Shown one piece after another: positions 1 to 14,458 of a stretch of DNA of 20,939 nt. The notes under the pieces are model-generated. The model did not search any database. It was not told the origin of the DNA and was given only the letters and a program-made list of their open reading frames with translations. Position numbers and translations under genes: made by a program. Each line of letters opens with the position of its first letter. The stretch's first letter is position 1. The stretch is from the IMG/VR virus record IMGVR_UViG_3300032954_000740, positions 1 through 20,939 of that record; one strand, 5' to 3'. The DNA comes from a virus.

Positions 1-141
1 AAAAAATGCCGGCTCGTACCGCATCGCCCATGGATTCCACCCCGACTCCTGCTCCACCACCGCGCACACCAGCGCCGGCTCAAGCCCTTCCATCTCCGCG
101 GCCCGGTGCGCCAGCGCAACGAGTTTTGCGTCAACCGGCAT
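1..141 (-). CDS. Lytic transglycosylase (SLT-like), N-terminal fragment cut by window edge
   Basis: The frame opens at an ATG (139-141), 3 bases after the stop of the upstream membrane-protein gene (TGA, 145-147), so the two are probably translationally coupled. Forty-seven codons are visible before the left edge, with no stop. The fragment reads MPVDAKLVALAHRAAEMEGL and then LVCAVVEQESGWNPWAMRYE. A helix followed by (V/I)xxQESGxNPxA is the signature around the catalytic glutamate of the SLT/goose-lysozyme-like transglycosylase fold, and Glu32 of ES is the likely catalytic residue. Such enzymes cleave the glycan strands of murein between MurNAc and GlcNAc. Lying last in the structural operon after a membrane protein, it could be the lysis enzyme or a virion-associated murein hydrolase used at entry. 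The family call is fairly sure. The role is not, because most of the protein lies outside the window. Confidence 0.75.
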   Translation of the reverse strand, partial: MPVDAKLVALAHRAAEMEGLEPALVCAVVEQESGWNPWAMRYEPAFF

Positions 142-144
142 GGC

Positions 145-402
145 TCACCGGTGCCGCCCGCCACCGTTCGCCAGATCGACGTAATTCACGATCGGCGTCT
201 CTTCGATCTCAATTCCCTGCCGTTCGGCGATGGTGTTCAGCGCCCGGTAAATATTCGGCAGGTGCCGCAGTGCGAGGTCGCGGACAAAAACGCGCTGGAT
301 CTCGTCGTCTCGCATCCTGCGGTGCATCCACCGGAGGAACACCACGAATTGCGCTCCCAACGAAAACACCACCACCAGATTCATCCAGCCCGAAGTTCCC
401 AT
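145..402 (-). CDS. Small one-helix membrane protein, possibly lysis-associated
   Basis: This is an 85-aa protein. Residues about 7-25 (MNLVVVFSLGAQFVVFLRW) form a single hydrophobic helix followed by a basic stop (MHRRMRD), which suggests an N-out, C-in protein with a roughly 55-residue cytoplasmic helical part. The ATG at 402 is preferred over Met7 because CCAAAGGG lies about 6 bases upstream. That SD sits on the flank of a palindromic repeat (412-445). It ends 3 bases before the transglycosylase fragment. One TM helix plus a helical tail beside a murein hydrolase resembles holin- or spanin-type accessory proteins, but no diagnostic motif is present. A virion membrane-penetration role is equally possible. 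Confidence 0.7.
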   Translation of the reverse strand: MGTSGWMNLVVVFSLGAQFVVFLRWMHRRMRDDEIQRVFVRDLALRHLPNIYRALNTIAERQGIEIEETPIVNYVDLANGGGRHR

Positions 403-411
403 GGGTTTCCC

Positions 412-445
412 TTTGGAGTGCGGGAGCGGGGCTCCCGCTTTTGCG
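412..445. repeat. REP-like palindrome, LECG-type copy A
   Basis: A perfect 8-bp stem (GCGGGAGC 420-427, GCTCCCGC 431-438) with a 3-base loop is flanked by TTGGAGT on the left and TTTTGCGG on the right. The same flanks and stem length recur at 5602-5634 with different but still complementary arms. On the minus strand the left flank reads CTCCAAAGGG directly before the ATG of the 85-aa membrane protein. I recognise the plus-strand reading (LECGSGAP) as a dispersed repeat of Acidobacteriota. That is recollection, not a search. Confidence 0.75.
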
Positions 446-511
446 GACGCGCCTGATTCTCGGCCGGGTGATGACCAGGTCTGCGGAATAGGTGAGGTTC
501 ACGGCTCTGTT

Positions 512-1072
512 CTACAAGAACAAGCCCGGAATGCCACCCAACGTCCCACCCAGGCTGGACCCAAGCGAGGTAAAGAATCCGGCGGGCCGCGACGCATTAG
601 CGCGCACGTTCAGCAATTCCGACGGAATCCCCAACGTCTTTCCTAGCAGTCCCGTGTCCACGCCGTACAGCCCGGAGAGCCCTTGCAACGCCGCCATCTG
701 CCGCTGGTATGCGGTGTTGCTGAAGTTCAACTGGTTCTGCTGCGCCAGCCCCGCTTCCTGCTGGGCCTTCTGCCGAGCCAGGTCGTCGGTCAGTTCGCTG
801 AACCCGGCAGAATTTCCCGTCCGCGCCACACGGTTCGCCGCTGCTTGTTGCAGCGAGTCAAACGCGCTGGCCAGCGCTCCCTGCGACTGCCCGGTGATCG
901 CCGCCTTGTCTGCGGCGCTGTACCCAGGATTGTTCAACATTGCCTGGTATTGCGGCGTCAGCAGATTTCCCAGCGACTGCTGCTGCCCCAGCAAGCTTTG
1001 ATTCACCGCATTCGTCTGGCCCAACTGCTGATCCGTCAACGCCTGTGTTTTTCCCTGCGCACCACGCCCCAT
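512..1072 (-). CDS. Gln/Ala-rich helical virion protein, possible DNA-ejection protein
   Basis: This 186-aa protein is dominated by polar helices rich in Gln, Ala, Asn and Leu (for example TDQQLGQTNAVNQSLLGQQQ near the N-terminus and LARQKAQQEAGLAQQNQLN in the middle). It ends in a Gly/Leu-rich, mildly hydrophobic tail (FFTSLGSSLGGTLGGIPGLF). There is no cysteine and no enzyme motif. Small helical Gln/Ala-rich proteins downstream of the nozzle gene in podoviruses are often internal or ejection proteins, and the glycine-rich tail could insert in a membrane. The ATG at 1072 is favoured because GAGGAGGGG lies about 5 bases upstream. That SD is directly downstream of a palindromic repeat (1092-1108). 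The coding call is firm; the ejection role is an inference from position and composition. Confidence 0.75.
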   Translation of the reverse strand: MGRGAQGKTQALTDQQLGQTNAVNQSLLGQQQSLGNLLTPQYQAMLNNPGYSAADKAAITGQSQGALASAFDSLQQAAANRVARTGNSAGFSELTDDLARQKAQQEAGLAQQNQLNFSNTAYQRQMAALQGLSGLYGVDTGLLGKTLGIPSELLNVRANASRPAGFFTSLGSSLGGTLGGIPGLFL

Positions 1073-1081
1073 GATTGCCCC

Positions 1082-1110
1082 TCCTCGTAGGGGCGGCTTT
1101 ATGCCGCCTT
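1082..1110. repeat. REP-like hairpin upstream of the 186-aa gene (GGCGGC type)
   Basis: GGCGGC (1092-1097) and GCCGCC (1103-1108) form a perfect 6-bp stem around TTTAT. On the minus strand the hairpin is followed by CCCCTACGAGGAGGGG, which holds the SD of the gene starting at 1072 and can itself pair (CCCCT with AGGGG), so it could hide that SD. A related but imperfect copy lies at 11949-11965, upstream of the adaptor gene. It lacks a T-tract on the minus strand, so it is not a classical terminator. Confidence 0.65.
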
Positions 1111-1112
1111 TG

Positions 1113-1523
1113 CTATTCCATGACGAGCTTCTTGCAGTGGGGGACCCAGGTATCGTCCCGCACCCAGCCGAGCCGCGTCAGCCGTTTCCCAAATTTAGTT
1201 GCAATTTCCGGCGGCAGCCACGCATGGACATCCTCAAGTCCCCGCGCCAAAGCGTCCCGCCGCGTCGCTTCATGCAATCCCAGAAGCCATTGCCATCGTT
1301 CCCGCGGACTACCCTCTTCCGGATCGAGCAGCAAGTACGCTTCGGCCGTCAGCCGCAACAGGGAAGCCGCCACAATTCCCTTCGCGCCCTCTTCCCTTCC
1401 CAGCACCAGCTTGGTGAGAAACAACGGATTCCCCAGATCGGGAAACGGATACCCAAATCCCTGCCGCGCATGGATCGCCCTTAACTCCTCCAGGTCCCTC
1501 TCTTCGTACTCACGAATCTTCAT
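1113..1523 (-). CDS. GNAT-fold acetyltransferase-like protein
   Basis: This 136-aa protein opens with MKIREYEERDLEELRAIHAR, the usual beta1-alpha1 start of GCN5-related N-acetyltransferases. It ends with a segment of the form FGKRLTRLGWVRDD and VPHCKKLV, matching the late helix-strand-strand part of the fold (roughly residues 105-135). A strand resembling beta4 (AAEAYLLLD-like, about 58-67) is present. The usual acetyl-CoA pyrophosphate-loop Q/RxxGxG/A is not obvious, so binding of acetyl-CoA is uncertain. It sits between two virion genes with the same orientation, so it is part of the late operon. GNAT-like proteins are recurrent in phage structural cassettes with mostly unknown substrates; modification of a virion or host protein is only a guess. 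The start ATG at 1523 has a weak SD (GGGTGCG). Confidence 0.7.
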   Translation of the reverse strand: MKIREYEERDLEELRAIHARQGFGYPFPDLGNPLFLTKLVLGREEGAKGIVAASLLRLTAEAYLLLDPEEGSPRERWQWLLGLHEATRRDALARGLEDVHAWLPPEIATKFGKRLTRLGWVRDDTWVPHCKKLVME

Positions 1524-1585
1524 CGCACCCGTGACCGCATTTCCGAATGCCGACTCCTGACTAAGTCGAATTACCTGTTCTCCGA

Positions 1586-2128
1586 TTACAAAACCGACTG
1601 CTTAACCACCCGCGCCCCCGGCACCACGCCAAATCCGTTTCCCCCGCGCAACAATCCATTGGGCAACGCGCCGCTCCCGCTGGAGGGCAAGGGCGTCGGC
1701 CCCGCGGTTCCGCCGCCAGCCACCGCCGTCGCCGGTGAGCCAAACGTCACGGGTGCCGAAGCCATTGACCCGACATACTGCGAATACGCCCGCCAATACA
1801 GCGTCTGATTCCCCAGCTGCACGTACAAATTCCGCGACGCGCCCAGGAAATACACGCGCGGCGCCGAAAATGCCGGCGTCGTGTCCGATTCCGCAAAGTA
1901 GAAAAGCCCCGGTCTTGTGACCGACGGATCGGCAATCGCCAGGTCAAACCATCCGTTTGCCGCTTGAACCGCTAACCCGGCAATCGGCGGAGGCGCCGGC
2001 GAGGGGTTCGACGGATCCACGCCTGAATTCGCACTTGTTGCGTTCACCGCCGCCACAATCTTCGCCAGCGTCTCATACAAATATGGATCGCGATTCTTCA
2101 GAGGTGCCAGTTGCGCCACGGTTAGCAT
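1586..2128 (-). CDS. Phage virion protein with fibronectin-III-like segment
   Basis: This 180-aa protein has an N-terminal helical region (MLTVAQLAPLKNRDPYLYET and the next 15 residues), a Pro/Ser linker (about 36-48), then a beta-rich stretch to about residue 140 (GLAVQAANGWFDLAIADPS, RPGLFYFAESDTTPAFSAPR, LGASRNLYVQLGNQTLYWRA) and a Gly/Pro-rich tail. The alternation of aromatic strands and the LYVQLG...YWRAYSQY pattern resembles fibronectin-III or Ig-like domains common on phage tails. No enzyme motif is seen. GAGGA about 6 bases upstream of the ATG supports the start. The position between the nozzle genes and the GNAT gene suggests a tail or neck component. I do not recognise a specific family. 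Confidence 0.7.
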   Translation of the reverse strand: MLTVAQLAPLKNRDPYLYETLAKIVAAVNATSANSGVDPSNPSPAPPPIAGLAVQAANGWFDLAIADPSVTRPGLFYFAESDTTPAFSAPRVYFLGASRNLYVQLGNQTLYWRAYSQYVGSMASAPVTFGSPATAVAGGGTAGPTPLPSSGSGALPNGLLRGGNGFGVVPGARVVKQSVL

Positions 2129-2172
2129 TTCATTCCTCGGGTGTCACAGCCATTGCTAGCTGCGCGCTTCAG

Positions 2173-2553
2173 CTACGAACTGATCTTCCCTGTCGCCGTC
2201 ACGTTGTTCGCCAGCGTCGCGACGTAGATTCGCGCGAACTTCGCCACCACGTCCGGAAACTCCGCCCGGGTCACATTTCCCGAGTTCACGGTCGTAATCG
2301 CCGAGCCTTCCTGTACGTAGGCCGCGTCAATATCCGTGTCCGCCGTCTGCAACTGCACTGAAATGGCCCCGGGAGCGCCGCTCCACTGCAATTCCACCGA
2401 CACGCGAATCTTCCCGCTGCTGAACGCCGGAGCCAGCGCCACCTGCGCGCTCTTATACGGCGCGGGGTAAATCGTGTCCGTGGACGCAATCACCGTCGCG
2501 CTCTCTCCGAATCCCACCGAAACCGGGGGCACCACATTTCCATAACTCGGCAT
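2173..2553 (-). CDS. Small beta-rich virion protein
   Basis: A 126-aa protein starting MPSYGNVVPPVSVGFGESAT. The ATG at 2551-2553 is chosen because GGAGG lies 5 bases upstream; the frame also continues four codons upstream to a TTG, which would absorb the SD. The body alternates hydrophobic and polar residues as in a beta-sandwich (KIRVSVELQWSG, AISVQLQTADTD, ARIYVATLANNVTATGKISS), with no cysteine and no catalytic motif. It is separated from the nozzle gene by a terminator-like hairpin (2566-2592), so its level may be set separately. A minor capsid-decoration or tail-tip protein is plausible. No specific family is recognised. Confidence 0.7.
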   Translation of the reverse strand: MPSYGNVVPPVSVGFGESATVIASTDTIYPAPYKSAQVALAPAFSSGKIRVSVELQWSGAPGAISVQLQTADTDIDAAYVQEGSAITTVNSGNVTRAEFPDVVAKFARIYVATLANNVTATGKISS

Positions 2554-2565
2554 CGTCCCCTCCAA

Positions 2566-2592
2566 AATAAAGAAGCCGGGCGCGAGCCCGGC
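2566..2592 (-). terminator. Rho-independent terminator after the nozzle gene
   Basis: On the minus strand GCCGGGC-TCGC-GCCCGGC (2575-2592) forms a perfect 7-bp GC stem with a 4-base loop and runs straight into TTCTTTATTTT. It lies 54 bases past the nozzle stop and 13 bases before the SD of the next gene. That is the layout of an intrinsic terminator inside an operon, giving partial termination. Confidence 0.7.
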
Positions 2593-2645
2593 CGTCAGTT
2601 ACCGTCCGTTTCCTGAAAACTTCCCACTTACAACGGAGCACCTTA

Positions 2646-5594
2646 CTAGTTCACTCCGCGCACTGGTGCCCACGGATCAACGCGCACCGACGGCACAAAT
2701 CGCTGCAGCTTGAACCACGCACCTGCCTGGTTCGTCCCCACTTGAAACGCCACGCGCTCCCCCAGAATATTGATCGGCAGCTCAAGATCCTCGGGCCCCG
2801 GTGTACTCATCCCCAGCGGCTGTTGCGCCGTCGCCGCGCTCTCCGAATCCACAAAACTGGTGAGCGCGAGGTTCCCCGCCCCTTCCACATACATCGTCAG
2901 GTAACTGAAGAGCTTGCGATGCGCGCCCAGACCTAGCGCGCTTTCGACCGCGCGCTCCGGGAAAAAATGTGTGGTGTAGTAGCTCGCGATCGCCGCGCCA
3001 TCATCTGAATATTGCGCATCGCTCAGCTGATAGATCTTCCCGGTCGCTCCGCCGCCGCCCACGCCCGGCGTCCCGCCGCCGAAGACGGCCACCGCGGTGC
3101 CGTCCGGCCGCTCGATCAACGCGCAGCAATTTGCCGCAATCGCCCACGGCGACCACTTCCGCGAATTGTCCGTGGCCGTCTTGCGCCCGGCGTAGGTGAT
3201 GTTCACCGGCGGCCGCGATTCAATGTCCGAGGCCGAATCCAGATCGTGATAGTCGAGCATCAATACCCGGTTGGGGGTCGTCGCGCTGCCGAATGGCGCA
3301 CCCACGTAAATCCGCCGCTCTTTCGTATCGACGGTCACCCAAAGCGTCTCCGCGTACTGCCAGTTGATCTGGTTCCACGTCGGTTGGATCTCTTGCGAGA
3401 TCTTCACCGGTTCCCCGCCCGAAAACAGGTACAAGCCTGTGCGGTGCGCAATCACCACCCAGTCTTCGCCAATTCCCACGCCGCGCACCGAGGGCGTCCC
3501 CACTCGCCGCGAAATTTCCGAAATGGACCAGAGCGCCGGCTCGTTCGTGCCGTCGTCCTGCGTCACGTGCACTGAGTGCTCCTTCACGAAGTAAAGCCGT
3601 TCGCGCAGCAGAAACGCCGCCCGGATTGCCTGTCCGTTGTTTTCCGCAACGCTCAGCATCCCGTCGATCCCGTCGTAGCTCTCCGGGTCTTCCACGCGGC
3701 TGGCGCGCACCAGCGATGCGTTCACAGGCTGTGCCGTCGGATAAATCTCAATGCCATCGATGTAAAACTGCCCGAACTGGTTCGGCGTCCCGTCGGCATA
3801 GACGCGCAGCACCAGGTCGATGGGTATCGTCGTCAGCGGCGCGGTCAGTTGCGCGCTGTATTCCACGTAATTCGTTGTGAGCTGTGCCGCGGTCAGTTGC
3901 AGCCCCGGGGTGTTGATTCCACCGCTTGCACTATACAAGTGGACGTGCAGCGTGCCCTGCACCAGCGCCGCGTTCCGCGCGCATCGTGCCCGCACCGTGT
4001 AATCCGTTCCCGCCTGAATGCGCGGCGCTCCCAGTGCGTCCTGCACTGCGCCCTGGGTCATCAACCCCCGCGTAACTGTCGTGCCATTTCCCACTATCGA
4101 ATACGCCGCGCCCCACACCACAAAATTCTGCTCGTCGGTTCCACCCGGTGCGAAGGTCGGATCGGCCGTCCATCCCAGCGGATAGTGCGGCAACGCCGGC
4201 CCGGTGAACCCGCCGTCGAATCCCAGGTTCACCCAGTTATTCATTTTGTTTCGCTCGCCCCACCAGAAGAGCCGCTCCGAATAACCGGTCACTCCCGCGC
4301 AATCGCCCAGCTCGATCAGGCGAAACAAATCGTCCACGTTCGTTCCCGCCAGCAGGACCGCATCCGAAAAATCCACAACAACCGACGTTGTCGTGTTGTC
4401 GCTGATCACCATGTTTCCGCTGAAAAGCGAAGATCCGCCGCCAACGTAAAAGAAGCTCGCCCCGCCCGCCCCTGTAAAGCACACAATCCGCGCCACCACA
4501 TTTGACGGGCCCGTCGGGATATTCGTCAGCACCGCGCGCTTGCCACCGCTTGCCGTCCAACTCGATGCCGGTCCGGGCGCCGTCAGATAGCCTTGCCGAG
4601 TTTGAAAAATGACGCAGCACTCGTGCGCGCCCTGGTCGACATACCCTGCCGCCGCAGCGGTTCCACCGCCGGACGCCGCCATCCCGCCGCTCGCGGCGTT
4701 AAACGTGAAGTGCGTCGAGTCAATCACGCTCGCAACGCTGAAAGTTCCGTTATATCCGCCCGCCCCCACGCCGCTGACCGTCACCAGTTGCCCCGCGCTC
4801 AATCCGTGCGCCCCCGTCGTCTGAATCGTTACCGCCGCCGAGGCTGCCGTGCCCCCGCCCGAATTCGCCAATCCCGTCGCCCCGGCAATGTACGTAAATT
4901 GCGTCGCGCTCATCACGCTCACCACCGGGAACGTTCCGTTGTAGGCGCTCACGCCCACGCCGCTGATGGTCACCGTCTGCCCGGCGCTCAATCCATGACC
5001 TGTGCTCGTCGTGATCGTTACCAGGTACCCGTTCTCGCTTGCGCCGCCGGGGCTTGCAACAATGGCCACTGCGGCGGGCTGCGTTGCGCCGCTCGGACTC
5101 GACGCGATCGCCGTGATCATATTCTCGTCTACCACGGTCGGCGCGCCGCCCGGCCCGCCCTGGCTCACGCGATCCAGGTTGCTGTCGTCATACTGCCTCG
5201 GCAAATCGTTGCCGGTCGCGCCATCGCTGGTCGCCAGATACTCGCGCCCAAACATCGTCGTCGAATTCGCGAATGCGTTCGGCGTCAAGCCTCTCGCAAT
5301 TGGAGTCAACGTTCCCGGCGACGTCTCCTTGTACAGAGTCCCGTTGGAATCCTGCGTTAACGTCCGGAGTGTCTCATTCGGCGTGATGTAGCTCTTCACA
5401 TAATTTACCGCCGGATTCCCGGCCAGTGGCCCGAACAGCGGCTGCAAACCCGGCCGCGTGGCCACTCCCCCGCTGCTGAATACCACGTCCTGGCAGTCCG
5501 GAGACACTCCATGCGGCAAATCCGCCGGGGCCATGTCCGTCACCAGCCCGCCGAAAATCTCAATCGGTACATCCACTGATCCAATCGTCGCCAT
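2646..5594 (-). CDS. Tail nozzle-like protein with tandem FCCH-like repeats
   Basis: A 982-aa virion protein. Near the N-terminus, LPHGVSPDCQDVVFSSGGVA then TRPGL (about 26-50) is a pattern I associate with large tail proteins of short-tailed phages such as nozzle/tubular proteins. Residues 189-250 and 253-312 are tandem repeats of about 63 residues sharing VTI-T-x-HGLSAGQ-VT-SGVG, YNGTF-V-SV, FT and SGGGTAA. This resembles the E1 FCCH-like small beta domain that recurs in phage tail proteins. From about 640 to 830 there are propeller-like strands (LRERLYFVKEHSVHV, GEDWVVIAHRTGLYLFSGGE, RRIYVGAPFG). The protein probably forms the tail tube below the adaptor. The ATG at 5594 is supported by CCAAGGG 5 bases upstream, at the edge of a palindromic repeat. 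The structural role is fairly sure; nozzle identity is inferred from size, pattern and gene order. Confidence 0.8.
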   Translation of the reverse strand: MATIGSVDVPIEIFGGLVTDMAPADLPHGVSPDCQDVVFSSGGVATRPGLQPLFGPLAGNPAVNYVKSYITPNETLRTLTQDSNGTLYKETSPGTLTPIARGLTPNAFANSTTMFGREYLATSDGATGNDLPRQYDDSNLDRVSQGGPGGAPTVVDENMITAIASSPSGATQPAAVAIVASPGGASENGYLVTITTSTGHGLSAGQTVTISGVGVSAYNGTFPVVSVMSATQFTYIAGATGLANSGGGTAASAAVTIQTTGAHGLSAGQLVTVSGVGAGGYNGTFSVASVIDSTHFTFNAASGGMAASGGGTAAAAGYVDQGAHECCVIFQTRQGYLTAPGPASSWTASGGKRAVLTNIPTGPSNVVARIVCFTGAGGASFFYVGGGSSLFSGNMVISDNTTTSVVVDFSDAVLLAGTNVDDLFRLIELGDCAGVTGYSERLFWWGERNKMNNWVNLGFDGGFTGPALPHYPLGWTADPTFAPGGTDEQNFVVWGAAYSIVGNGTTVTRGLMTQGAVQDALGAPRIQAGTDYTVRARCARNAALVQGTLHVHLYSASGGINTPGLQLTAAQLTTNYVEYSAQLTAPLTTIPIDLVLRVYADGTPNQFGQFYIDGIEIYPTAQPVNASLVRASRVEDPESYDGIDGMLSVAENNGQAIRAAFLLRERLYFVKEHSVHVTQDDGTNEPALWSISEISRRVGTPSVRGVGIGEDWVVIAHRTGLYLFSGGEPVKISQEIQPTWNQINWQYAETLWVTVDTKERRIYVGAPFGSATTPNRVLMLDYHDLDSASDIESRPPVNITYAGRKTATDNSRKWSPWAIAANCCALIERPDGTAVAVFGGGTPGVGGGGATGKIYQLSDAQYSDDGAAIASYYTTHFFPERAVESALGLGAHRKLFSYLTMYVEGAGNLALTSFVDSESAATAQQPLGMSTPGPEDLELPINILGERVAFQVGTNQAGAWFKLQRFVPSVRVDPWAPVRGVN
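4659..5030 (-). repeat. Tandem repeat within the nozzle gene (two FCCH-like units)
   Basis: Two adjacent units, 4845-5030 and 4659-4838, encode homologous stretches of about 62 residues ending in the same SGGGTAA. Both contain HGLSAGQ and YNGTF. The units differ at many codons, so the duplication is not recent. Confidence 0.75.
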
Positions 5595-5601
5595 GTTTCC
5601 C

Positions 5602-5634
5602 TTGGAGTGCGGAGGCCCGGCCTCCGCTTTTGCG
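5602..5634. repeat. REP-like palindrome, LECG-type copy B
   Basis: GCGGAGGC (5609-5616) and GCCTCCGC (5620-5627) form a perfect 8-bp stem with a 3-base loop. The flanks TTGGAGT and TTTTGCGG match copy A at 412-445, while the stem arms differ from copy A with pairing preserved. On the minus strand CTCCAAGGGAAAC joins it to the ATG at 5594. Confidence 0.75.
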
Positions 5635-5674
5635 GTTCACCCCGACTAGCAAACAATTTGTGCTGCTAAAATGC

Positions 5675-5735
5675 CTGGGCTTCTCGGGCGTGCCCAGAGC
5701 ACGTTGAACTTTCAGGGCGGCGTTCTTCGCCGCCC
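5675..5735. repeat. Two adjacent hairpins between the zinc-ribbon and nozzle genes
   Basis: AGGGCGGCG-TTCTT-CGCCGCCCT is a perfect 9-bp stem (about 5713-5735) starting just past the stop of the zinc-ribbon gene (5739). CTGGGC (5675-5680) pairs with GCCCAG (5692-5697). On the minus strand the big hairpin is followed by GAAAG rather than a T-tract, so it may be a transcript-stabilising or REP-type element more than a terminator. On the plus strand it is followed by TTTCTATTTT and would work as a terminator for antisense transcripts. Confidence 0.6.
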
Positions 5736-5738
5736 TTT

Positions 5739-6389
5739 CTATTTTCGCTTCCCTTTTTCCACCGCGTTCTCGGTCTTCTTGGCAGTTTCGCTCACCGGCT
5801 TCTCTTCCCTCCCCGCCAGCCCGAACTGCGCCGCTTTCTCCCGGTCCAGGATCGCACCGCACGACCGGCAAACCGCCACTCCCGGTTTGATTCGCTCCCC
5901 GCACGCCGGACACTCCGCCATCGGCTTACGGTCGTACAGCCATGGCTTCTCGAATCCCAATTCCCGCGCCGCCCGCCGCTCCAGGTCCGTGATGAACATC
6001 ATGTTGTGCGAACGCTCCCATTCGAGGTCCGCCGCGTCCACCAGTCGCAGTTGGAACGTCTCCAGCTTTCTCCGTGCGTCAGCAAGCTCCTCAGCCGTTG
6101 GCTGCGGGCCATCTGCCACAAACACGCCGTGAAAACTCCCGTCTCCCGAATCGCCATTAATTTCTCGCGCCAGGTCCTGCGCGATTTCCTTGGCCGACAG
6201 CCGGATTTCCATCGTCCTCTTATCGCCCAAGTCCATCACGCTGCTGCAACCGCGGATCGGCGTCACTGCATATGCCTGCCCGGGCTCCGGGGATTGAATT
6301 ACCAGCGACCCGAAATATGCCCTATGCCGCGGCGGCCATTTTTGCCCGGAGATGTTCACCAACGACACCACGTCGCCCTGTTGACTCAT
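5739..6389 (-). CDS. Phage protein with C-terminal zinc ribbon
   Basis: A 216-aa protein starting MSQQGDVVSLVNISGQKWPP. The ATG at 6389 has GAGGGA 4-5 bases upstream, and the frame further upstream overlaps the spike gene with unnatural composition, so the longer reading is rejected. The middle is helical and charged (ELADARRKLETFQLRLVDAA, DLEWERSHNMMF). Near residues 165-185 there is CPACGERI, nine residues, then CRSCGAIL, a classical two-CxxC treble-clef zinc ribbon. The tail is Lys/Glu-rich. It lies between the spike and nozzle genes, so it may be a chaperone or assembly factor or a minor tail protein. No specific family is known to me. Together with the portal it is the second zinc-binding candidate in this module. 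Confidence 0.75.
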   Translation of the reverse strand: MSQQGDVVSLVNISGQKWPPRHRAYFGSLVIQSPEPGQAYAVTPIRGCSSVMDLGDKRTMEIRLSAKEIAQDLAREINGDSGDGSFHGVFVADGPQPTAEELADARRKLETFQLRLVDAADLEWERSHNMMFITDLERRAARELGFEKPWLYDRKPMAECPACGERIKPGVAVCRSCGAILDREKAAQFGLAGREEKPVSETAKKTENAVEKGKRK

Positions 6390-6439
6390 ACTTCCCTCTT
6401 TGTTCTTGGTATCTGGCGGTGTCCCCGCCGGTTGAAAAC

Positions 6440-9400
6440 TCAATTTTCGATCGTATAACTGATGCACGCGGCATTCGCGCTCGGCGCCACCGGCAGCGTA
6501 ATCGTGAAACTCGTGCCCGCACTCAACCCGCTCACGTACGGCGGCAACATCGATCCGATGTTGCTCGGCCCAGGCGAACACCCCGTCCCGGTTGTCACAT
6601 ACGTGAACGCAAACCTGCTGCTCGCGGTCACCGCTGTCGTGTTCACCGTCAGCGTGGTCGCCGCCGCAGCCACCTGCACCAATCCCGTCGGTGCGCCTCC
6701 GCACACCGCCGGCGACGCCGTGGAATTACAATTGGAAATCGTTCCGATCGAGCTCGCTGTCAGGTTGCCATACAAGCCCGCTGGCGTAATGGTCTGCAAA
6801 GCTGTGGAATTTACGCTCGGCTGGCTGCCGCACTGGCTGGCCACTGAATCGGTAATGGTCGAGAACGAGACCGGCAGAAACGAAGGCCCGCAAAGTGAGC
6901 CATTGTGGGCAAAAACGCCGCCGGGGTTTGGGCTTGACCCGACGCGATACACGCCCCAATACGCTGTCCCCGGAGGCAGTGCCGGCTGGGTAATCACCGC
7001 GCACTGCGTCGAGCCGTCGAGTGTTACGCCGGTTGATGCTGGTCCCGGCGTGGTCACTCCTCCAGTTCCCGTGGTGTAGTTGGAACTCGCGTCCCACGCG
7101 ACCACCGCGTAGTAGTAGGTCCCCGCCGCCGGGAATCCCCCGCAGCCGGTGTTCGTTGCCGCCACGGTTGGCGCGGAGCTCGGCGTGACGATTTGCCCGG
7201 CGCTTATCTTTCCGCTTCCACCGATAGCAAGTTGTGTTCCGTTCCACACCCACTGATTGTTCGACAGGTTTTCATAAACCACGCCCGCCGTCGGGGGATA
7301 CCCCACGCCCGCCCCGCATGCTCCCTGCGAGAGTCTGACGTGAATTCCCTTGTAGCTGTTAGCGCTGTTTGTCTCGAGCAGAGGTTGGTAGCCGTTCGAG
7401 CAATCCGTGTACGAAAATTCAACGCCGCTAGCTCCCGAATTGGTCAAGTCCATATAAGGCGTGGCGGGACCGCCGGTATAATCGGAGAAATTTGTCTGCT
7501 GAAACGTGATTCCAGCCAATCCGTAAGGGAGCAAGTTCACCTTGAAAGCTGGGCCGGCGTTGTTTTCCGTCAAAACATTGTTGAACTGGACGTTGGTTCC
7601 GAATGTTCCCGCGGACATCCCGCAATTGGCGATCGTGAAGGTTCCGAAACTGTACGTGCCGTTCGTTGTCACGATATATGGCAATGACGCCTGTCCTTGG
7701 TACGCTCCCGACCCGCAATTCGGATGAATCGTGAAATTCCGGCTCTCCGAAAAGTTGCCCCCCGACGCGCTCCAACCGCCCAAATTCCAGAAATCTCCAA
7801 ACCCTGCCTTGAACACCACTGGATACGAGTGGGCGTTCCCGTCTACATGGGTATTGTCGAAGCGCAGGCCGGCTGTGCCGTCGCCATTTATCTGCTCGTC
7901 CAGGTACAGCCCGCTCTGGTACGCCTGGTTGGGGCTAAATTCCACGTCTTTCAAATGGTTCGAGCTCGACTGCTCCGGCTCGAAGTACACCATCGGATAC
8001 GCGGATCCGACAAAACAGGAAATCGACCCCATCTGATAAAACGCCGTCTGGCAATTCGTTCCGCCGAATCCTCCAGACAGGTTGGCGCCTTTTCCCAGCA
8101 GGATCGTTCCGTCGAGCCACGTCGTCGGTCCGAAATCAATCGTGACGCCTGGACAGTTCCGAGGAGACTGGCCGTATGCACCGGGCATGTCGAAGTTCGC
8201 GATCATCGGGAAGTACTGATAGATCGCTGAGGCGGCAGGAATCACAATGTGACCGGAGTTGGACCCGCTCGTGTTGGATGGCAGTGCCGCGCACGCCGCC
8301 AGCAGATTCGGCACGTTGTCGTGCCATGCTTTCGCGCTGCTTACGCTATTTGTGGCCGCGTTGGCGAGCGTCAAAGAAGTCGTCCCTCCGCCGCTCACAA
8401 TCGTCGTATCCAGATATTCGTTTGTGGCGTTCACCGGGGCCGTTGTCGGAGCATCTCCCGCATCCACTGAGGCCGTCGAAACGCTCCACCCGCGATCCAC
8501 AAAGTAGCCGTCGTTCCCCGTCGCAACTCCCGCCAGCGAATAATTCCCCGCATTGGCGGGCAGCGCGCACGAACTTCCCGTGCACTCATACACCAGGTGA
8601 TTCTTCACGGCCTTGCCGGGGACCGCCGTTAACGTTCCACCCGCGCCAACGTTCGTCACCCCCGTGCAGCTTCCCAATGAATACTGCACCGTGCTCCCCC
8701 CGGTGCCATAGTTGCCGATGGTGAACGCGCCGTTGTAATGCGAATCCAGCGCCCCTGAAATAATCGCCTTGATGTTCCAGGGTACCACCCAAGTAGAGGC
8801 CACCGTCCCGCCCGGGCCGTACATTCCCGGCGAGATCGCAACTGTCGCCGTGCCTCCCGAACAGGATGCCGACTGGATGTTGTAGGTATAGTGCGAATCC
8901 CATTTGAGAATAATCTGCGGGGCTACGCGCAGCGTTCCCCCGGAGCACCCCGGGTCGTTTTGCAGTTCGTTCCTCTGAAACTGCAGCGTCGTTGCTGAAG
9001 GCACTGCCGTCAGCGAAAATGCCCCCTCGCAAGCGCCCTTATTGGTTGTGCCCGCTTGTATCTCTACCTGCGCGTACGGGTCGCTCTGAATCCCGGAGGC
9101 GGTCGTTGGCATGTTGTGCGGTGATGACGTCGTGACCGTGAACGTGGCCGTGCTGGTGTTGAAGCTCCATCCGGAGATGCTATACGTCGCCAGCGCCATC
9201 GAAGCCGGCGCGTTCGTCGTCGTCCCCACGGCGCTGCACGACGTAAGGCCGCCTGCCCAATCCCGATCGGCAATGCAATAGTTGCGTGTCGTCGCACCCG
9301 TTTGGAAGAGGGTCGTCGCTGTCGGGGCCTGCGGCGTCGCAATTACCGGCACGGGTCCCGCGCCCAGAATCAGGATGCCATTCCCGTTAACAAAATCAGA

Positions 9401-13201: not shown

Positions 13202-14458
13202 CTAGTAGCCCGACGGCCGCGCCAGCGTATCGATATACGCCCCGCTCCGCGGCGAATCGCTCCACACCTGAAACGCCGTATCGAAGTAGAAGATGTACGA
13301 CGCCGCAAGCCCGCCGCTTGCCCCGTAAATCGGGAACACCGTGTTGCCGTTGACCTCGTAAAAATCGATGTCCTTCAACACGGCCCGTCCCCAGTGCGAC
13401 AGGTCCAGGAAGTCCACGCGCGTCTGGTCCGCGTTCACGCTCGACTTGATCGGAATCCCGCTCATCGTCTTGCGTCCCGTGAACAACAGGTCCAGGTCGT
13501 TCCCGCTACCGCTCCCGCCTTCCTTGATGATCTGGCTTACCGTGATTCCCAGGTTTTCCCACGCGTGCTCCTGCTCCACGGCCATGTACGCGATCAGCTT
13601 GCTCAGGTGATTGATGCCCAGCGCCTTTCTTACCTTGTTGATCGCCAGCCGTACCGCCGCCGGCGTCAGCGCGGCGTTGCCGGCGTTCACACGGGGAGTT
13701 TGCAGGATCACCGGATAGGTCGCGCGGTTCAGGTTCAGCCATGTCCCTGTCGTCGCGTTGTTCTGGTGATACTTGATTCCATAGAGCGACACCGGCTGCG
13801 ACCCGCTCAAACCGTCATGCACGATCACGTCGCCGGCGGTCAGCCCGCTCGGATTTGCGTCAACCGTGATCGTCTGCGTCGAGCTGATCGGATCGGCAGC
13901 TTGCACCTGGCATGACCCGCGGTTCGTCGTCAGCGTCGAGTCGTACACCTGGATCGTCTGTCCCGGATAGACCAGCGCCGCGCCCGGCGGCGTGGCCATC
14001 GTCCAGGTCGTGCTCGCAAACGAGCCGATCGTCCCCAGTACGCCGTTCCCGGCCGTTTGCATCAACTTGTCCAGGAACGCGCGGAACTGCCGCATCCCGT
14101 TCGCCACTTCGCGCTTCGCCGCATTCTCCACCGCGCGCTCTTTCCCATTCGTCGCGTATTCCACCAGCTTCGTGATTTCAATCGCGAAGCGGAAGAATAT
14201 CGGCGACACCTGTGCCACGTCGTACTGTGTCCCCGATCCGCGTCCCAGGTCGCCGCCGTCCGCGTTGTACGAACCGGCCTTGCCCCCGGGGTTCACTTGC
14301 AGCGGCAGCCGCATGTTCCGGCTGGATACTCTCTCGATGTCTCCCCGCTGCTGGATCATCGTCAAAAGAATGTCGTCGCGCTCATAGAGCAGGGGCACTT
14401 TGTCGCGCACCTTCTCGAGCTGCAACGCGATGACATTCGCGTTCGCCTGTGCTGGCAT
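13202..14458 (-). CDS. Major capsid protein (HK97-fold type)
   Basis: A 418-aa protein beginning MPAQANANVIALQLEKVRDK, immediately downstream of a scaffold gene in the portal-scaffold-coat order. Helical N-arm (about 1-40), then strand pattern (NMRLPLQVNPGGKAGSYNAD), then a long spine-helix-like stretch (EITKLVEYATNGKERAVENA, AKREVANGMRQFRAFLDKLM, about 92-135). A beta-rich insertion follows (PGQTIQVYDSTL, QTITVDANPSGLTAGDVIVH), and the C-terminal part has KLIAYMAVEQEHAWENL and FPIYGASGGLAASYIFYFDT. Length matches P22-type coats (about 400-430) and there is no fused protease or delta domain, in line with the separate scaffold. A strong SD, AAAGGAGAG, lies 6-8 bases before the ATG, suiting the most abundant virion protein. 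A hairpin with a T-tract stands upstream (14529-14561). Confidence 0.85.
   Translation of the reverse strand: MPAQANANVIALQLEKVRDKVPLLYERDDILLTMIQQRGDIERVSSRNMRLPLQVNPGGKAGSYNADGGDLGRGSGTQYDVAQVSPIFFRFAIEITKLVEYATNGKERAVENAAKREVANGMRQFRAFLDKLMQTAGNGVLGTIGSFASTTWTMATPPGAALVYPGQTIQVYDSTLTTNRGSCQVQAADPISSTQTITVDANPSGLTAGDVIVHDGLSGSQPVSLYGIKYHQNNATTGTWLNLNRATYPVILQTPRVNAGNAALTPAAVRLAINKVRKALGINHLSKLIAYMAVEQEHAWENLGITVSQIIKEGGSGSGNDLDLLFTGRKTMSGIPIKSSVNADQTRVDFLDLSHWGRAVLKDIDFYEVNGNTVFPIYGASGGLAASYIFYFDTAFQVWSDSPRSGAYIDTLARPSGY

Follow-up and report, generated by a model that had tools for sequence, protein, structure and literature searches.

REPtrons combine repetitive extragenic palindromes (REPs), their paired forms (bacterial interspersed mosaic elements, BIMEs, and REP doublets forming hairpins, REPINs), and REP-associated tyrosine transposases (RAYTs, or TnpA_REP), and are described from Escherichia coli, Pseudomonas, and Stenotrophomonas (main texts of PMC2817692, PMC3116915, and PMC8266576). 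The canonical guide of a REP is GTAG or GTGG, located 0–2 nt 5′ of the stem (main text of PMC6006769). Here we analyze two palindromes in a 20,939-nt stretch of viral-record DNA (IMG/VR record IMGVR_UViG_3300032954_000740, positions 1–20,939; hereafter the window). Both are very probably copies of one REP family, guided by GGAG(T) and apparently spread by a host RAYT; they reside in a long-inherited, chromosomal phage-like cluster carried by soil Acidobacteriota. On the main-text descriptions of REPtrons, the family shares with them a dispersed extragenic hairpin, a conserved guide 5′ of a variable paired stem, inverted pairs, and an HUH/tyrosine transposase flanked by copies; it departs from them in its GGAG(T) guide 1 nt from the stem, in the phyla concerned, and in its many single copies within a phage-like cluster.

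Other described systems resemble it in part. Class 3 TnpA_Y1 transposases of Planctomycetes and Acidobacteria include acidobacterial genes flanked by high-copy palindromes, but they are described in the main text with a CnGA foot and a Y----Q motif, whereas the RAYTs considered here carry Y---N[A/P] and pair with a GGAG guide (PMC6006769). TIRYT elements likewise place acidobacterial tyrosine transposases between inverted repeats; what sets them apart, by the main text, is that these inverted repeats are long, terminal, and without relation to REPs, with GGGGWSAS in some of them (PMC3733652).

Both palindromes lie on the plus strand of the window (Table 1), the first of them one base to the right of where a sequence-only reading of this DNA had placed it. 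As that reading held, the two elements match and each stem pairs perfectly, the arms differing by paired changes. Perfect 8-bp, short-loop palindromes are no more frequent in the window than chance allows (3, vs. 0–5 in 20 shuffles); the spaced pattern of the element matches twice, vs. no match for a reversed control. What stands above chance is the flanking sequence in common and the family beyond the window, not the palindrome by itself. The proposal that the elements set Shine–Dalgarno-like sequence before start codons did not survive inspection of the strands: GGAG lies on the plus strand, opposite the genes; the mRNA of g1 and g6 reads ACUCCAA at the 3′ flank of the stem; and its sole Shine–Dalgarno-like letters, AAGG(G), fall outside the palindrome.

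The element belongs to a dispersed family. A loose pattern fixing only GGAGTGCGG and CCGCTTTTG matched 26 viral-contig stretches; 12 of the matches (in 9 contigs) are spaced as closely as in the window, the others have longer inserts, and several seem unrelated. A stricter pattern gave 10 genome-contig stretches with titles naming Acidobacteria, Verrucomicrobia, Planctomycetota, and, in one case, a metagenome-assembled genome (MAG) of Bordetella parapertussis. Genomes G001–G007 hold 2, 1, 10, 1, 11, 121, and 14 copies, respectively, by the first pattern with a shorter gap, and strict matches occur in 18 of 297 genomes of G005's phylum and 17 of 95 genomes of G007's order; the reversed control pattern gave none in the 7, 297, and 95 genomes searched. 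Both window copies are among the 53 used to build a covariance model, R1, so their own scores follow from its construction. Run on seven genomes picked for holding the element or its RAYT, R1 matched 53 times in G003, 27 in G005, 73 in G007, at least 136 in G006, 23 in G369, 32 in G377, and 14 in G340. Scoring covered 150 candidates per genome, which makes the G006 figure a lower bound.

Pairing in the stem exceeds expectation across this family. In the 53-row alignment A1, to which every row but the window's own was admitted with no more than 2 mismatches, the loop is 2–3 nt, the stem is 8 bp, 96.7% of cells are paired—a figure that reflects rows chosen for pairing—and 5 of 8 stem pairs show two-sided changes. 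An unfiltered set took in all strict copies whose fixed parts are 10–11 nt apart, 94 in number with 53 distinct inserts. Its inner stems pair in 191 of 212 cells; 2000 shuffles of the partners averaged 144.6 paired cells and never exceeded 158. Together, the unfiltered excess and the two-sided changes in A1 argue for a fold constrained at the family level, so the expectation that the fold matters and that the arms of other copies covary was borne out at that level. The same does not extend to the two window sites as evidence of compensatory change: the window copies are paralogous, and at the orthologous g6 site, where five copies share their flank, none of the 8 stem pairs shows a two-sided change and 2 of 39 cells are unpaired. 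Two loci with a longer stem at that site (L102 and L121) were left out of the five-copy set.

A distinct RAYT clade accompanies the element. Y1_Tnp genes are present in all seven of G001–G007, and one of them, P0001 of the acidobacterial MAG G005, sits between inverted element pairs. Homologs of P0001 were searched in 95 genomes of one order and 19 further genomes, and GGAGTGCGG or its complement was looked for around the 60 RAYT loci returned; the bacterial loci are those the searches returned, mostly 3 kb in length. The element flanks 15 of the 18 loci at or above 41% identity to P0001 vs. none of the 42 below 40%; with the cut at 45%, the split is 14 of 17 vs. 1 of 43 (Fisher 5.5e-10). In a tree of 56 RAYTs, from which L273 and L281, among others, were left out, all 14 flanked rows fall within one supported group of 17, most of whose rows carry HUH and Y...N[A/P] motifs. 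Half of the ten group proteins scanned exceed the NCBIfam REP_Tyr_transpos cut-off of 80 bits: beside P0001 and the L233 frame (75.5 bits), five of eight further members lie above it and three do not. Across the 95 genomes, a RAYT was found in 6 of 17 that bear the element vs. 1 of 78 without it (P = 9e-5). Inverted pairs of the BIME/REPIN type are formed by the element itself: in L068 they surround the RAYT, and L006 holds such a pair as well. No RAYT was detected in the 50 viral records checked, and a sequence search returned no relatives of the RAYT in PDB.

Because the element flanks one RAYT clade specifically, we read it as a REP family whose guide is GGAG(T). It appears to be paired with its own RAYT clade in Acidobacteriota and Verrucomicrobiota, and a few other genomes hold the element too. 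In the mechanism we propose, by analogy with described REP systems (main texts of PMC8266576 and PMC3116915), the host RAYT would recognize the guide and hairpin as single-stranded DNA and then probably spread copies into intergenic DNA. The enzyme would need a paired stem, so that self-paired yet differing stems could coexist; such a requirement would produce covariation across the family. On this view, the cluster has collected several REP families between its genes. Movement driven by the RAYT through recognition of stem and guide is thus suggested by likeness to these systems.

Some further loci show variants of the arrangement. The viral contig L027 has three long-armed versions of the element (of the GGAGTGCGGTGGC...GACACCGCTTTTG type) plus further copies, and in L234 long versions adjoin a RAYT. 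The GTDB contig titled as a Bordetella parapertussis MAG (L029, genome G001), a name that may be misassigned, carries the element; this genome holds two strict copies and an element-flanked RAYT of the same group.

The window appears to be a piece of a phage-like cluster inherited vertically in the chromosome, because in its relatives the capsid gene is single-copy and syntenic, with conserved host flanks. Homologs of the capsid protein, at 54–93% identity, occur as a single copy in 44 of the 95 genomes of the order (a few split over fragments). In the 20 regions retrieved, genes follow the order of the window for the most part when the genome is a near relative and to some extent when it is distant. 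G335, G337, G328, G332, G007, and G003 have the cluster between the same host genes in unchanged order, as does G338 on the downstream side; in G392 and G389, the upstream flank is shared in part. Capsid identity tracks the identity of the flanking genes (Spearman 0.76 over 29 nonindependent pairs). Viral loci seldom extend to these flanks, one such gene being present in 2 of 75. What the sequence-only reading called phage genes therefore correspond, in relatives, to a single-copy syntenic chromosomal locus.

Gene transfer agents and domesticated prophages are phage structural clusters that are inherited vertically at a fixed chromosomal place. The acidobacterial cluster is a candidate for either, to judge from gene content and gene order; it is known here from its genes and their synteny, and we do not claim it as a gene transfer agent. 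Its terminase, podovirus-type capsid, and tail genes form a conserved single-copy cluster (e.g., G335:C2:1364000-1423999) that is filed as phage in viral collections.

Within this cluster, the copies are placed almost uniformly. Relatives were collected among viral contigs (63 by the capsid gene, 11 by g6), and an R1 search of 80 sources gave 29 matches at E < 0.1 after removal of duplicates. The start codon lies on the GGAGT side of 28 of these 29 copies and a stop in one (L130); where both distances are available, the start is the nearer end in 22 of 25 (median 11 vs. 173 nt). Genes were called with a purpose-made, simple open-reading-frame scorer that missed g7 in the window, owing to which the start-side count also drew on protein matches. 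Collapsing the copies by hand for shared descent gives 15 sites vs. 1. Between co-directional genes of the cluster, 25 copies are antisense and none is sense, vs. 28 sense and 14 antisense at other chromosomal sites (Fisher 1.1e-8, over copies that are not independent). Cluster copies precede g1, g3, g5, g6, g7, g12, g13, and g15, and the gene preceded varies among relatives; copies must therefore have been gained or lost.

Outside the cluster, the element is extragenic, and it shows no leaning toward start codons. Only 2 of 77 bacterial copies fall inside an open reading frame by our own gene caller, with seven G006 copies counted apart. For 67 intergenic copies both neighbors were called: a stop lies on the GGAGT side of 46 and a start on that of 21, and in 52 the GGAGT end is the one nearer to a gene. 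Five of the seven G006 copies face a start. The GGAGT end does lie near genes in general, across the family. The start-codon position that the sequence-only reading emphasized thus holds inside the cluster and fails outside it, and for the family as a whole the absence of a start preference elsewhere is the very outcome that this reading had named as speaking against it.

The intergenic regions of the cluster also hold other repeats. GTAG-tagged, REP-like hairpins fill them, 194 in 75 loci (L099–L172) and mostly one-sided; examples are L103:4254-4377, L100:5955, and L112. GTAG is the 4-mer most enriched (28-fold) beside intergenic hairpins on the antisense strand. Single GTAG repeats in viral records divide 68 to 12 by orientation, and across cluster and flank they keep mostly one orientation per genome (12 of 12 in G332), with a sign that varies between genomes (L301–L340). 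In the same loci, GTGG-tagged repeats are often opposite in sign to the GTAG ones, and some GTAG repeats that look single may belong to a pair whose other member is GTGG-tagged.

Several observations weigh against the REP–RAYT interpretation. The guide departs from the canonical one in its letters: GGAG plus T stands in the right place but is neither GTAG nor GTGG. With its short hairpin, many dispersed copies, extragenic location, RAYT flanked by copies, and inverted pairs, the element seems best described as REP-like with a variant guide, not as a canonical GTAG REP. Three loci at or above 41% identity lack the flanking element: L265 in G006, and L268 and L281, the halves of one split gene. 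P0001 itself scores 79.4 bits, just below the REP_Tyr_transpos cut-off of 80. G003 has its 53 model matches with no cognate RAYT in the assembly, where the best candidate has 32% identity. Before g6, loci form a nested series, with the GGAGT REP alone in L099, one GTAG REP added in L100, and a second in L103; the series itself speaks for the interpretation, but insertion and deletion are indistinguishable in it. No record joining the window itself to host flanking sequence was found, and the window record ends inside the cluster. The main unexplained point is orientation: simple spreading does not account for the near uniformity in the cluster.

Under the function first proposed for the elements, each would be a hairpin in a 5′ leader, serving translation or mRNA stability and held upstream of a start codon by selection. 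The start-side placement in the cluster agrees with such a role, and the hairpin is stable in mRNA. We nevertheless regard it as improbable, given that stops outnumber starts outside the cluster, that copies precede different genes in different relatives, that the five orthologous copies lack compensatory change, that an Rfam scan of the window matched no family, and that GGAG is not on the mRNA; the copies inside the cluster may still have a secondary role of this kind. A weak intrinsic terminator read along the plus (guide) strand, one that would be of use downstream of host genes and could persist in a phage-like operon only in antisense, is unlikely but has a real chance of being right; it is compatible with the REP reading and would explain the one-sided cluster orientation. 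The GC-rich stem followed by TTTTG, the sense-to-antisense ratios between co-directional genes (28:14 at chromosomal sites vs. 0:25 in the cluster), and the contrast in G003 and G007, where all four cluster copies are antisense while three single copies in the G007 flanks are mixed, all favor it. A terminator scan of window positions 1–7000 lists neither element, however: only four T follow the stem, short of the criterion of at least five T within 8 bases. Cluster GTAG repeats, moreover, are one-sided too, with opposite sign in different genomes. We consider it doubtful that a selfish, RAYT-spread palindrome was repeatedly recruited beside the start codons of a domesticated cluster, its guide strand always antisense, to insulate or tune single operon genes.

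Orientation might also arise in other ways. Selection against sense copies is possible, though neither element is listed by the terminator scan. Strand-specific insertion is possible as well, and the one-sided pattern could be the fossil record of such single-stranded insertion; against this, GTAG repeats change sign between genomes. The one-sidedness of single GTAG repeats would suit an explanation from the replication strand, whereas their change of sign between genomes and the mixed orientation of the few GGAGT copies in the G007 flanks would not; we do not claim this explanation. That the window represents a free phage whose genome acquires host REPs during infection is very improbable. 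Its records are classed as viral and contain terminase, capsid, and tail genes, but the homologs are single-copy and syntenic on chromosomes in 44 of 95 genomes, two cluster proteins have no relative among 50,697 phage records, and a known host REP is rare in those records (53 of 50,697). Among ten listed phage records with that host REP, one carries it on transduced host DNA; another record bears a bacterial name. No phage DNA or protein similar to the window was found in the same 50,697 records. The REP–RAYT interpretation, with the copies housed in an inherited cluster, remains the one we prefer.

Table 1. Coordinates of the two palindromes, genes, and terminator-like hairpins in the window; the window genes lie on the minus strand
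Feature	Coordinates	Strand	Remarks
g1, 85 aa	145..402	-	start codon (ATG, 402) 10 nt from copy 1; no PHROGs/Pfam match
REP copy 1	413..446	+	TTGGAGT-GCGGGAGC-GGG-GCTCCCGC-TTTTGCGG; GGAGT guide, 8-bp stem GCGGGAGC/GCTCCCGC, loop GGG, tail TTTTGCGG
g2	512..1072	-	on TTTTG side of copy 1; weak pilot-protein match
Strong terminator-like hairpin	2574..2593	-	immediately upstream of g5; same strand as the genes
g6, 982 aa	2646..5594	-	virion structural/tail-fibre-like; start codon (ATG, 5594) 7 nt from copy 2
REP copy 2	5602..5635	+	TTGGAGT-GCGGAGGC-CCG-GCCTCCGC-TTTTGCGG; GGAGT guide, 8-bp stem GCGGAGGC/GCCTCCGC, loop CCG, tail TTTTGCGG
Strong terminator-like hairpin	5714..5736	+	after g7, on the strand opposite to g7
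g7, zinc-ribbon protein	5739..6389	-	on TTTTG side of copy 2; kept in related clusters
g12, major capsid protein	13202..14458	-	single-copy syntenic chromosomal homologs in related acidobacteria
g15, terminase large subunit	19112..20677	-	

REPs, RAYTs, and their linkage are already known; what appears new is the GGAG(T) variant of the guide. The main texts of four REP papers contain no word beginning with GGAG, and literature on REPs or RAYTs with phage or Acidobacteria yielded no GGAG-guided REP and no REPs in clusters of this kind. Supplements were not covered in either case, and the claim of novelty carries that caution.

Whether RAYTs truly move REPs at all is a question of long standing. 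The present family, with its altered guide and its own RAYT clade, provides a natural test of how guides are recognized. Dozens of related genomes carry the syntenic cluster, which permits site-by-site comparison of REPs at filled and less-filled sites without movement having to be reproduced in the laboratory. Viral contig collections include inherited chromosomal clusters, and “phage” regulatory elements reported from them may be host repeats. If the palindromes have indeed been recruited beside the start codons of the cluster, a host REP/RAYT system would be shaping the expression of inherited particle genes.

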